From positions 1 to 64,000 of the forward strand of contig CAADHD010000018.1 of assembly GCA_900696575.1 (NCBI GenBank): a DNA stretch of 64,000 nt, in the 5' to 3' direction. This DNA comes from an uncultured Bacteroidota bacterium. GTDB taxonomy: Bacteria; Bacteroidota; Bacteroidia; AKYH767-A; OLB10. Shown one piece after another: positions 39,983 to 44,742 of this stretch; position 1 is the stretch's first letter; every line of letters starts with the position of its first letter. The translations under genes and the position numbers were made by a program. Below the pieces are notes generated by a model. The model was given only the letters and a program-made list of their open reading frames with translations. It was not told the origin of the DNA and did no database searches.

Positions 39983-41851
39983 GTGGTTCAGTATGATGTT
40001 ATTGCAGTTGGAGCCGGTCATGCCGGCTGCGAGGCCGCTGCTGCAGCCGCTCGCCTTGGCTCTAAAGTTCTTGTTGTAACCATGAACATGCAAACCATCG
40101 GTCAGATGAGTTGTAACCCGGCCATGGGGGGCATAGCTAAAGGCCAGATAATCAGGGAAATAGATGCGCTTGGGGGCCTCTCAGGAATCATTACCGATAA
40201 AACTGCCATCCAGTTCCGGATGTTGAATCGTTCTAAAGGTCCGGCTATGTGGAGCCCCCGTTCGCAAAACGACCGATGGCGATTTGCTGAAGAATGGCGA
40301 TTGGCATTGGAGCGCATTCAAAACATTAACTTTTACCAGGATATGGTCTCCTCCATTATAGTTGAAGGAAACAAAGCAACCGGAATTATTACCGCAACGG
40401 GCGAAACCTTTAAAGCCAAAGCTGTGGTATTGACTAACGGCACTTTTCTTAACGGACTTATACATATTGGCGAAAAACACTTTGGTGGCGGCCGTGCCGG
40501 AGAAAAAGCAGCAACCGGAATTACAGCTTCATTAAATGCTCTTGGCTTCCGTTCCGGACGAATGAAAACCGGCACTCCTCCCCGAATTGACGGAAGAACC
40601 ATTGACTATTCAAAAATGGAAGAACAGAAAGGCGATGTAAATCCAGGCAAGTTTTCATTCAGCGATGAAACCCGGCCGGTTGAAAACCAAATGAGTTGTT
40701 TTATAACCTATACCAACTCTCGGGTTCATGATGCTTTGCGCGAAGGTTTCGGCCGTTCTCCAATGTTTAATGGTGCTATTGAAGGCACAGGGCCACGATA
40801 TTGCCCCTCCATCGAAGATAAAATTATCCGTTTTTCAGAGCGTGAGCGTCATCAGCTTTTTGTTGAGCCGGAAGGAAGACAAACCATCGAAATTTACCTT
40901 AATGGCTTTTCTACTTCGCTTCCTATCGAAGTTCAGCAGAAAGCCCTTAACCTGATTCCTGGACTTGAAAAAGCTAAAATTTTCCGGCCGGGATATGCCA
41001 TCGAATACGATTACTTCCCCCCCGACCAACTTCATCATACACTTGAAACAAAACTGATTGAGAATCTCTACTTTGCCGGCCAGATTAACGGAACAACCGG
41101 CTATGAAGAAGCCGCTTGCCAGGGTCTGTTGGCAGGCATAAATGCACATTTGAAAATTAACGAAAGAGAGCCTTTTATTCTTAAAAGGCACGAAGCTTAC
41201 ATTGGTGTGCTGATTGACGACTTGATTACAAAAGGAACAGAAGAGCCCTACCGCATGTTCACTTCCAGGGCCGAACACAGGTCTTTGCTTAGGCAAGATA
41301 ATGCCGACATTCGTCTTACGCCCCTTGGTTTTAAAATGGGACTTGCCTCTGAAGAACGTTACAATAAAGCCCTGCGAAAACAGGAACAGGCAGCACTTTT
41401 AACAGAGTTCATGAAGGAGGTAAACATTACCCCCGAAGAAGCCAACCCAATGCTCGTTTCACGTGAAACCGATGCCCTTTCAGTAAAAACAAAACTTCAC
41501 AACTTATTACTCAGACCTCAGGTTTTTATGGATAACCTTGTCTCTGTTTCAGAACCACTTAGCGCTTTTCTTAGCGATAATTGTATATCCAATGATGTTA
41601 TTGAAGAGGCTACCATAAACATCAAGTACAACCATTACATTGAAAAAGAAAAGGAGTTTGCCGAACGTCTCAATCGCTTCGAAGACATTATCCTCCATAC
41701 CGATTTTAACTACCATGACCTGCCTTCTTTAAGCTATGAAGCAAGGCAGAAGCTCACTAACATTAAACCCCGTACTATTGGCCAGGCTTCGCGCATCAGC
41801 GGAGTTTCTCCTGCCGATATTTCTGTGCTCCTCGTTTATGTCGGTAAATAA
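39983..41851 (+). CDS. mnmG: tRNA uridine-5-carboxymethylaminomethyl modification enzyme MnmG (GidA)
   Basis: 622 aa, normal length. FAD- and NADH-dependent partner of MnmE that modifies the wobble uridine (cmnm5U34). FAD motif 'VIAVGAGHAGCEAAAAAARLG' region at the N-terminus, 'MSCNPAMGGIAKGQIIREIDAL' region, 'KTGTPPRIDGRTIDYS', and the C-terminal helical MnmE/tRNA-binding part ending 'SRISGVSPADISVLLVY'. The start is GTG, placed 4 nt after TATCTTTG; no in-frame ATG gives the proper N-terminus. A parS-like palindrome is embedded at 41455-41470, coding Val-Ser-Arg-Glu-Thr. The methyltransferase gene overlaps its end by 14 nt. In many bacteria gidA neighbours oriC. Confidence 0.97.
   Translation: MVQYDVIAVGAGHAGCEAAAAAARLGSKVLVVTMNMQTIGQMSCNPAMGGIAKGQIIREIDALGGLSGIITDKTAIQFRMLNRSKGPAMWSPRSQNDRWRFAEEWRLALERIQNINFYQDMVSSIIVEGNKATGIITATGETFKAKAVVLTNGTFLNGLIHIGEKHFGGGRAGEKAATGITASLNALGFRSGRMKTGTPPRIDGRTIDYSKMEEQKGDVNPGKFSFSDETRPVENQMSCFITYTNSRVHDALREGFGRSPMFNGAIEGTGPRYCPSIEDKIIRFSERERHQLFVEPEGRQTIEIYLNGFSTSLPIEVQQKALNLIPGLEKAKIFRPGYAIEYDYFPPDQLHHTLETKLIENLYFAGQINGTTGYEEAACQGLLAGINAHLKINEREPFILKRHEAYIGVLIDDLITKGTEEPYRMFTSRAEHRSLLRQDNADIRLTPLGFKMGLASEERYNKALRKQEQAALLTEFMKEVNITPEEANPMLVSRETDALSVKTKLHNLLLRPQVFMDNLVSVSEPLSAFLSDNCISNDVIEEATINIKYNHYIEKEKEFAERLNRFEDIILHTDFNYHDLPSLSYEARQKLTNIKPRTIGQASRISGVSPADISVLLVYVGK
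41455..41470. other. parS-like ParB-binding site 1 (within mnmG)
   Basis: The 14-bp perfect palindrome GTTTCACGTGAAAC (41456-41469), flanked by C on both sides, matches the 16-bp bacterial parS consensus TGTTTCACGTGAAACA at 14 of 16 positions. It is coding sequence in mnmG. It lies 399 bp before site 2. Confidence 0.7.
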
Positions 41852-42776
41852 TGCGTTTCACGTGAAACAGGCGCAGGAATCTCTTTCTGCTTGCCCGGTT
41901 TGTAATGCTTCTCTAAACGCCTTTATCTCTGCCAAAGACTTTACCGTTTCACATGAAACATTCGGCATTATGAAGTGTACAGACTGCTCTCTTCTTATTA
42001 CCAATCCAAGACCCGACATTAATTCCATCGGCAAATACTACCAAAGCGAAGATTACATCTCACACTCCGCCACTTCAAAAGGGTTGATTAATAAACTTTA
42101 CAAAACAGCCAAATCATTCAGCATTAACAATAAATGCAGATTGGTTTTAAAAATCTCAGGCAAAAAGACCGGACAAATACTTGACTACGGCTGCGGGCGT
42201 GGCGATTTTATTCTTTCCATGAAACAGAAAGGCTGGGTTATTAATGGGGCAGAGCCTGATGAAAAAGCTGCACAAGCCGCAAGCCTGCAATGCAGCATAA
42301 AAATTATTTCGCCCGATGATGTTTTCTCCTTGCCCGACTCATCCTTTGATGTTATTACCCTCTGGCATGTTCTTGAACATGTTCACCGGCTTAACGAAAC
42401 CGTTGCCAAACTAAGAACGCTACTTAAGCCTGATGGCATTCTCATTATTGCCGTTCCCAATTACGAAAGTTTTGATGCCCGATTCTATAAAGAACATTGG
42501 GCTGCGTTTGATGTTCCCCGCCATCTTTATCATTTCAGCCATAAAGCCATGAATGCTATGCTCAAGCAACACCATTTAAATTGCTTTGTGGTAAAACCTA
42601 TGGTACTCGATGCATTTTATGTATCCATGCTCAGCGAGAAATACCGCCACTCTGCTTTGGGGATAATAAAAGGCTTTTTAATTGGCTTGTTATCTGATAT
42701 TCAAGCAATTACAAGTGGCAATTGGTCCAGTTTGATTTATGTTTGCCATTCCGGAAATCATCATCATAATTCATGA
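41838..42776 (+). CDS. Class I SAM-dependent methyltransferase with N-terminal zinc-binding segment
   Basis: 312 aa from ATG 41838 ('MSVNNAFHVKQ'), overlapping mnmG by 14 nt; the frame is open upstream inside mnmG but that would be overprinted. An N-terminal Cys4-type segment ('CPVCN', 'CTDC', about residues 19-50) is followed by a Methyltransf_11/23 core: SAM motif 'ILDYGCGRGDFILSM', acidic motif 'INGAEPDEKAAQ', 'FDVITLWHVLEHVHRLNET' and 'LLKPDGILIIAVPNYES'. This zinc plus methyltransferase layout is common in polysaccharide or glycolipid gene neighbourhoods. It is coupled by 4 nt to the DUF354 gene. Two parS-like sites lie in its first 41 codons. The substrate is unknown. Confidence 0.83.
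   Translation: MSVNNAFHVKQAQESLSACPVCNASLNAFISAKDFTVSHETFGIMKCTDCSLLITNPRPDINSIGKYYQSEDYISHSATSKGLINKLYKTAKSFSINNKCRLVLKISGKKTGQILDYGCGRGDFILSMKQKGWVINGAEPDEKAAQAASLQCSIKIISPDDVFSLPDSSFDVITLWHVLEHVHRLNETVAKLRTLLKPDGILIIAVPNYESFDARFYKEHWAAFDVPRHLYHFSHKAMNAMLKQHHLNCFVVKPMVLDAFYVSMLSEKYRHSALGIIKGFLIGLLSDIQAITSGNWSSLIYVCHSGNHHHNS
41854..41869. other. parS-like ParB-binding site 2 (start of methyltransferase gene)
   Basis: CGTTTCACGTGAAACA matches the parS consensus TGTTTCACGTGAAACA at 15 of 16 positions and contains the full 14-bp palindrome. It begins 3 nt after the mnmG stop codon, inside codons 6-11 of the methyltransferase gene. Confidence 0.8.
41945..41960. other. parS-like ParB-binding site 3 (degenerate)
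   Basis: CGTTTCACATGAAACA, 14 of 16 to the parS consensus; the central CG is changed to CA, which breaks perfect symmetry and could weaken ParB binding. It is 91 bp after site 2. Confidence 0.55.
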
Positions 42777-43828: not shown

Positions 43829-44041
43829 TAAAAGAATCTACCAGCATTGTTACAAAACCCCAAAAACGTAACGATTCTATTCCATAATTTTTTATGCATG
43901 AGCCCCGTTTGCAGTTCTTTGCAAGCGGTTGTTTTCTGTTGCAAATCCCGCTATTTTAAGAGGGAGCTTTCACCCCCCGCCTTTTCACACATTCCCTTAC
44001 ACATGCTGGCTGAGTTTCAATCCGGCATGGTCAGTTACTTT

Positions 44042-44116
44042 TTCCCCTCTGTGTGTACACTTGTGTGAATGCGAGAGGGGGCGCGTTTGTTTGTACGGCT
44101 GCAGGGATGTGTCCTT
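44042..44116. repeat. Imperfect REP-like repeat, copy A
   Basis: Shares with copy B an opening TTCCCCTCTGTG, a central GCGAGAGGGGGCGCGTTTG and a TGCAGG...TGTGTCC ending. CCCCTCT (44044-44050) and AGAGGGG (44074-44080) can pair as a 7-bp stem, with GTGTACAC as a small palindrome in the loop. Confidence 0.65.
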
Positions 44117-44194
44117 TCCGTCATAACAAACCTATACCTAAAAATCGTCACTGCTATCTCGTCAGTAATGTTTAACGGGTGATATCCCCTCTAC

Positions 44195-44270
44195 TTCCCC
44201 TCTGTGCTGTAGGCTTTGCGCGCTGGCGAGAGGGGGCGCGTTTGCTTGTGCGGATGCAGGTGTGTGTCCA
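44195..44270. repeat. Imperfect REP-like repeat, copy B
   Basis: Second copy, 153 bp downstream of copy A in the same orientation. CCCCTCT (44197-44203) pairs with AGAGGGG (44229-44235). The stems are conserved while the loop differs, which is what a selected RNA or DNA hairpin would show. Confidence 0.65.
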
Positions 44271-44362
44271 TTTTCTTAACCACACATACAATACCTCGCC
44301 TGTTACATCGTGCTTGTCATGCCGAGGTAAGAGGCATCTCCCCCAAACATTCCCGTCAGGCA

Positions 44363-44392
44363 TTTCCCAACGGTAGCCAACGGTTCCCAACG
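44363..44392. repeat. Triple 10-bp tandem repeat
   Basis: Three 10-bp units TTTCCCAACG, GTAGCCAACG, GTTCCCAACG in tandem, immediately followed by ATTTTTTAATTA. Confidence 0.6.
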
Positions 44393-44500
44393 ATTTTTTA
44401 ATTATTTCATTTTCAGATACTTAAATCGCAGGCCTCCATTTCTAACCCGCAAAACCACTCCATAAGCCCTTTACATCCACAAATAATCTGTTCTCCGGCA

Positions 44501-44563
44501 GGAGTATTCACTTACTCAAAAGGGGTATTTCGTTAGCGGGCAGGGGTATTTCATTTATCATCA
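44501..44563. repeat. Three 21-bp-spaced GGGGTATTTC-TTA units upstream of purL
   Basis: GGAGTATTCACTTA (44501), GGGGTATTTCGTTA (44522) and GGGGTATTTCATTTA (44543) recur every 21 bp exactly, two helical turns, 180-240 bp before the purL -7 box. Same-face phasing suggests a multi-site protein-binding element. Confidence 0.6.
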
Positions 44564-44742
44564 ACAGTTTACCGTTTCTCGCCTTCGCGTAATTCCTTTG
44601 CGCCCATCCCTGATTCATTCCTCTCCTTCCATATCCGTTCTACCCCCTCCCATATTCCCTCCTTTGCGCAGGGTATGCAGTTAATTCATAAATCAAAAAT
44701 TGTGAGTCCTTAATCGTGCATCCTCATCTTATTCCCCCCTGC

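Follow-up and report, generated by a model that had tools for sequence, protein, structure and literature searches.

A predicted parS centromere at mnmG in a Bacteroidota bacterium, with sites that overlap coding sequence

Three palindromic sites clustered around the junction of mnmG (gidA) and the gene that follows it very probably serve the ParABS system of a Bacteroidota bacterium as its parS cluster, i.e., as the chromosomal centromere. A preliminary description of this DNA had proposed a parS centromere, and the proposal is supported by our analysis since these are the only sites with zero or one mismatch in the assembly, the same genome encodes ParA, a parS-type ParB, and SMC, and the position at mnmG is common in relatives. 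Judged from its sequence, the element is of a known kind, an ordinary ParABS centromere, at a position widely common to the sampled Bacteroidota. What we did not find in print, within the part of the literature that we searched, is the phylum-wide link between parS and mnmG, together with the imprint that the site leaves on protein sequence.

Three parS-like sites cluster at the end of mnmG

The stretch of DNA that we analysed, hereafter the window, covers positions 1-64,000 of contig C18 (224,693 bases) in a draft assembly of 2,870,907 bases and 35 contigs. The 14-mer GTTTCACGTGAAAC occurs twice in it (41456-41469 and 41855-41868), and a variant, GTTTCACATGAAAC, which deviates from a strict palindrome at its centre (CACATG), is found at 41946-41959. 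The three palindromes that had been described, and their match scores (2, 1, and 2 mismatches when compared to the parS consensus TGTTTCACGTGAAACA), were borne out. The sites and their host genes are listed in Table 1. Site 2 begins at the third base past the mnmG stop codon. The start codon of the methyltransferase is uncertain, being either ATG 41838, which overlaps mnmG, or GTG 41862, which is inside site 2, and two of the three sites are within reading frames, or all three if the gene starts at ATG 41838. A 16-mer scan of the window revealed no parS-like site upstream of mnmG, unlike in most named relatives.

Table 1. Candidate parS sites and the genes that surround or carry them (window coordinates)
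Feature	Position	Strand	Description
parS site 1	41455..41470	.	CGTTTCACGTGAAACC, 2/16 mismatches; within mnmG codons 492-496, read V-S-R-E-T
parS site 2	41854..41869	.	CGTTTCACGTGAAACA, 1/16 mismatches; 5' end of methyltransferase frame, read F-H-V-K
parS site 3	41945..41960	.	CGTTTCACATGAAACA, 2/16 mismatches; CACATG-centre variant within methyltransferase gene, read V-S-H-E-T
mnmG (gidA), 622 aa, carries site 1	39983..41851	+	Pfam GIDA 548 bits, SAM_GIDA_C, GIDA_C_1st (residues 457-557)
Class I SAM-dependent methyltransferase gene, carries site 3	41838..42776	+	Pfam Methyltransf_23, 91.4 bits

The cluster had been described as unlikely to arise by chance, which agrees with our shuffling experiments. 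The 14-mer with up to two mismatches has three matches in the window versus 0.24 expected, and none of 100 shuffles reached three. The 16-mer with up to three mismatches has three matches versus 0.37 expected, a number reached by 2 of 100 shuffles. The latter result is what can be said for a mere chance cluster of palindromes, which we consider extremely improbable in view of the 14-mer result, of the recurrence of all three positions in a genome of the same genus (G001, 76% MnmG identity), where site 2 persists only as a 3-mismatch remnant, and of the fact that the location is common across the order. Assembly-wide, copies are not evenly scattered: the 14-mer with zero or one mismatch was found only in these three places, all inside one 506-bp cluster, and a reversed control gave none. 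With up to two mismatches, there are 11 places versus 9 for the control, and the 8 places beyond the three sites are therefore background.

The genome encodes ParA, a parS-type ParB, and SMC

The single ParB match in the genome (C28:14000-14881; TIGR00180, 193.8 bits; Pfam ParB_N, HTH_ParB, and ParB_C) is on contig C28, which agrees with the earlier statement that there is no parB gene in the window. The genome thus has parB, and adjoining it, directly upstream and on the same strand, is a Pfam-confirmed ParA gene (C28:14887-15705). A full-length SMC (1014.7 bits) is encoded on contig C10, and dnaA is located on contig C25. When ParB was aligned to Noc and to ParB chains with known structure, its specificity positions (173, 179, 184, and 201) were found to be R-F-K-G. 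According to the accessible part of PMC7383237, R173 and G201 are absolutely conserved among extant ParB orthologs, and, with the residue roles given there, the R and G of this ParB occupy the two positions separating parS binding from NBS binding. A Noc binding site (NBS) does not fit since the Noc type is Q173, K179, K184, and R201, and the sole TIGR00180 match has R, F, K, and G.

In the mechanism that we propose, ParB would load on the three sites, slide, and spread over flanking DNA, and would recruit SMC. ParA would then pull the duplicated mnmG/origin region apart.

parS sites are found at mnmG across sampled Bacteroidota

We searched an order-level set of 42 genomes, including our own, defining a strict site as GTTYCACGTGRAAC. 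A GTTYCACRTGRAAC site is present in 36 of them (the reversed control gave 2 matches), and 37 have an mnmG match. In 35 of these 37 genomes, own included, a strict or CACATG-type site lies no more than 1.3 kb from mnmG. The two exceptions are G026, in which the mnmG match covers residues 3-321 and leaves the contig at base 2, and G032, where the site at mnmG has one mismatch. As for the five genomes without an mnmG match, no site was found in four, and the fifth has one of the CACATG type. Strict sites are almost all at mnmG, with 55 of 59 within 1.3 kb of the gene and 4 elsewhere, and CACATG-type sites are divided between mnmG (8/14) and other places (6/14). In the best 30 nearer loci, ranked by mnmG match score and drawn from the 56 of 61 genomes with a match (a sample that leans to close homologs), a strict site was found upstream of mnmG in 11 and at 0-60 bases past the mnmG stop in 21, own included.

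As a side observation, an SMC above the family cut-off was found in all but two of 21 genomes; these two, G026 and G029 of the same order (family f4), reach a best E of ~1e-6. G029 has solely CACATG-type sites at mnmG and G026, whose mnmG is cut by the contig end, has none; SMC loss and parS decay may be linked in these two genomes.

The same arrangement is seen in named species. In the best 80 of at least 590 candidate loci (L005-L084), a sample that again leans to close homologs, 68 have a strict site no more than 500 bp from mnmG, and in 6 more the usual upstream place is taken by a site with one mismatch. Strict sites number 159 in 228,116 bp near mnmG versus 13 in the 1,076,730 bp farther away in these best 80 loci. 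The remaining 6 of the best 80 (L022, L032, L056, L058, L060, and L074) lack a strict-family site, up to two mismatches being allowed, no farther than 600 bases from mnmG, and the rule is therefore not universal. Three of these six are titled Saprospiraceae or Lewinellaceae, and the sequence of L074 reaches just 224 bases upstream. In a whole-genome search of 18 named genomes, hand-picked from the best 80, strict sites were found in 16, with 1-9 sites each and 38 in total, all within 940 bp of mnmG. The other two, Dyadobacter and Runella, have no strict site, and in each of them mnmG is preceded by a site with one mismatch. With the reversed-pattern control, two of the 18 genomes gave a single palindromic place each. 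The maximum among the 18 is seen in Terrimonas ferruginea (G075, locus L076), where nine strict sites fall in the 1 kb that precedes mnmG.

Strict sites most often begin 20-90 bases ahead of the mnmG start (61 of the best 80 of at least 590 named loci), where a promoter or 5' leader would be expected, which would suit palindromes acting as transcription-factor operators that control mnmG and its neighbour rather than as a centromere. We regard this as very unlikely. This upstream site is absent from the window, and sites are also found just past the mnmG stop (0-60 bases past it in 43 of the same best 80 loci), within mnmG, and within the methyltransferase gene. Moreover, the sites have the sequence of the parS consensus, genomes with sites contain between 1 and 9 copies, and a cognate parS-type ParB is encoded. 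Since the common upstream parS sits where the mnmG promoter or leader is expected, ParB spreading might affect mnmG transcription.

The parS cluster is probably origin-proximal and lies apart from parAB and dnaA

The preliminary description had also placed the window close to the replication origin, a claim that is probably right. In its favour, the keto skew turns at mnmG/parS in 2 of 3 other Bacteroidota that were sampled. In Polaribacter sp. BM10, which has one chromosome of 3,254,403 bases, the switch of the sampled keto skew from negative to positive falls in the 2.39-2.49 Mb interval, which contains parS (2.450 Mb). Two samples have the wrong sign (2.22 Mb, positive on the negative arm, and 2.93 Mb, negative on the positive arm), and GC skew alone shows no clean turn at parS in this species. 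In Pedobacter psychroterrae, the keto skew changes sign in the same direction at 0.76-0.82 Mb, an interval that includes parS (0.794 Mb), and four samples (0.11, 1.26, 1.56, and 1.86 Mb) are wrong-sign or near zero. The keto-skew signal is weak in the third, an order-level relative (G038). On our own contig, the cumulative minima (49,186 for GC and 47,761 for keto) are less than 8 kb from the sites, which gives no sign of a distant skew minimum, but the swing is small, and a single contig does not represent a whole chromosome. Against the claim, DnaA boxes show no excess in the window, with 17 at up to one mismatch versus 16.6 expected, and so do not pinpoint the origin itself. We conclude that the parS cluster of this genome is probably origin-proximal.

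In each of the 13 relatives that were searched for both genes, parB and dnaA are either on a different contig from the sites at mnmG or, where they share a contig with them, 0.68 Mb or more away; distances read from draft contigs need not be physical distances. In Polaribacter sp. BM10, dnaA is at 1.275 Mb and parB at 0.181 Mb. In Pedobacter psychroterrae, dnaA is 0.79 Mb from parS, and parB is on a different contig. According to the accessible text of PMC10653881, the usual neighbours of chromosomal parB across bacteria are gidA, mnmE, gidB, and yidC. The ancestral origin neighbourhood that it describes (parB, gidA, mnmE, gidB, and yidC) has gidA, i.e., mnmG, beside the partition region, as here, but in our genome parS is alone at mnmG, and the two par genes are encoded on C28 instead. 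Since mnmG and parAB are origin neighbours in many other bacteria, parS may have kept its place at mnmG while parAB and dnaA moved.

When compared to the chromosomal parS of ParABS systems (TGTTTCACGTGAAACA), the sites are alike in sequence, clustering, and genomic rarity, and in being accompanied by genes for ParA, ParB, and SMC; an origin-proximal placement is probable, being backed by skew in two relatives. They differ in that they are at mnmG, away from parAB and dnaA, two are in reading frames, and one has a CACATG centre. The accessible parts of two reports on Flavobacteriaceae assign origins to mnmG by Ori-Finder and GC skew (PMC12843772 and PMC11278836); mnmG is the origin locus there, as is probable here, and no connection to parS is made in those parts. 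In the available text of PMC11278836, dnaA is moreover said to be at odds with the skew, and the legend of figure 3 in this paper swaps oriC and ter relative to that text. A set of 12 gut bacteria, among them Bacteroides caecimuris and Muribaculum intestinale, was examined by Hi-C in PMC10197239, in whose accessible portion parS clusters and skew place the origins, and dnaA is not always there. parS clusters thus mark the origin in that study, and its accessible portion contains no statement on mnmG or on coding overlap; it reports that condensin homologs were not found in its two Bacteroidetes, whereas our genome encodes SMC.

In the literature searched, which was covered in part and included few subscription papers, we found neither a parS-mnmG link in Bacteroidota nor a protein change driven by parS. 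This includes the accessible parts of PMC10197239, PMC12843772, PMC11278836, PMC7383237, PMC7333895, and PMC10653881, in which parS is not joined with mnmG in Bacteroidota and no parS-driven protein change is described. We suggest that parS at mnmG might be used as a sequence-only origin marker in draft genomes and metagenome bins of Bacteroidota, in which dnaA can mislead.

The in-frame sites track codons and, in MnmG, amino acids

Some parS sites elsewhere fall in coding sequence, e.g., in Bacillus subtilis spo0J. The preliminary description had stated that the sites constrain codon use and had suggested comparing the same mnmG codons in relatives. We made this comparison with an alignment of 110 different MnmG proteins (from the best 80 named and best 30 nearer loci, own included), and the statement proved right, even understated, since at the mnmG site the amino acids too track the DNA site. 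The codons of site 1 lie in the GIDA_C_1st domain (residues 492-496). A site with up to two mismatches is present at these codons in 4 of the 110 homologs, namely our own, G001 (same genus), G003 (same family), and G037 (same order); the next-best row has 6 mismatches. Exactly these 4 of the 110 have V-S-R-E/G-T at residues 492-496, positions that are mostly variable, with entropy percentiles of 83, 94, 94, 85, and 61 for V, S, R, E, and T, respectively.

Site 3 overlies a V-S-x-E motif of the methyltransferase, a homolog of which is present in 89 of the 110 mnmG loci (best 80 named and best 30 nearer), presence in the locus not necessarily meaning adjacency. Among these 89 homologs, all nine with V-S-R/H-E-T, own included, use the codons GTTTCACRTGAAAC, spelling GTTTCACGTGAAAC or GTTTCACATGAAAC. 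The chance of the GTTTCACRTGAAAC string from codon usage is 0.004-0.076 per homolog, probabilities that are not independent and must not be multiplied because the nine rows are related. V-S-x-E also occurs in 43 other methyltransferase homologs, where x is G in 21, K in 12, and H in two; of the last two, L107 (V-S-H-E-S) retains most of the DNA site and L099 (V-S-H-E-K) does not. The simplest reading is that the V-S-x-E codons are a near-parS string, which turns into parS once x becomes R or H.

These counts bear on whether the in-frame sites might be by-products of protein conservation, with V-S-R-E-T being needed for MnmG or methyltransferase function, rather than selected DNA. V-S-x-E is indeed a methyltransferase protein motif even without parS, as the 43 homologs outside V-S-R/H-E-T show. 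Nevertheless, we find this explanation highly improbable since V-S-R-E/G-T is restricted in MnmG to the homologs with the DNA site, at mostly variable positions, and since all of the V-S-R/H-E-T methyltransferases, although related, share one codon string spelling parS or its CACATG form.

We then reconstructed the states of both in-frame sites on a gene tree of 38 MnmG proteins from which the five site columns had been removed, with L107, whose methyltransferase site has 3 mismatches, scored as site-less. There are at least 3 state changes for the mnmG site and 8 for the methyltransferase site, and 18 of the 35 inner branches are open, so that repeated gain is indistinguishable from an old origin with losses; repeated gain of in-frame sites is possible. 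When 395 genomes of the phylum were searched for the in-frame site together with the codons on either side of it, 5 matches were found; only that of the window is inside mnmG, and the other 4 are just upstream of the mnmG start.

We therefore put forward as a tentative view, to which we give slightly less than an even chance, that the Bacteroidota centromere is anchored at mnmG, apart from parAB and dnaA, and has recurrently become embedded in the frames of mnmG and the next gene, at the same codons in different lineages, imposing V-S-R-E-T. If recurrent embedding and an imposed V-S-R-E-T are true, protein sequence would be shaped by a centromere. The locus offers a clean case in which a segregation site tracks codon choice and, in MnmG, amino acids, and the strength of the selection that keeps a centromere against protein constraint becomes testable.

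Elsewhere in the window, an 887-base intergenic stretch (43829-44715) contains two copies of a 47-nt repeat, which are 87% alike and 155 bases apart.
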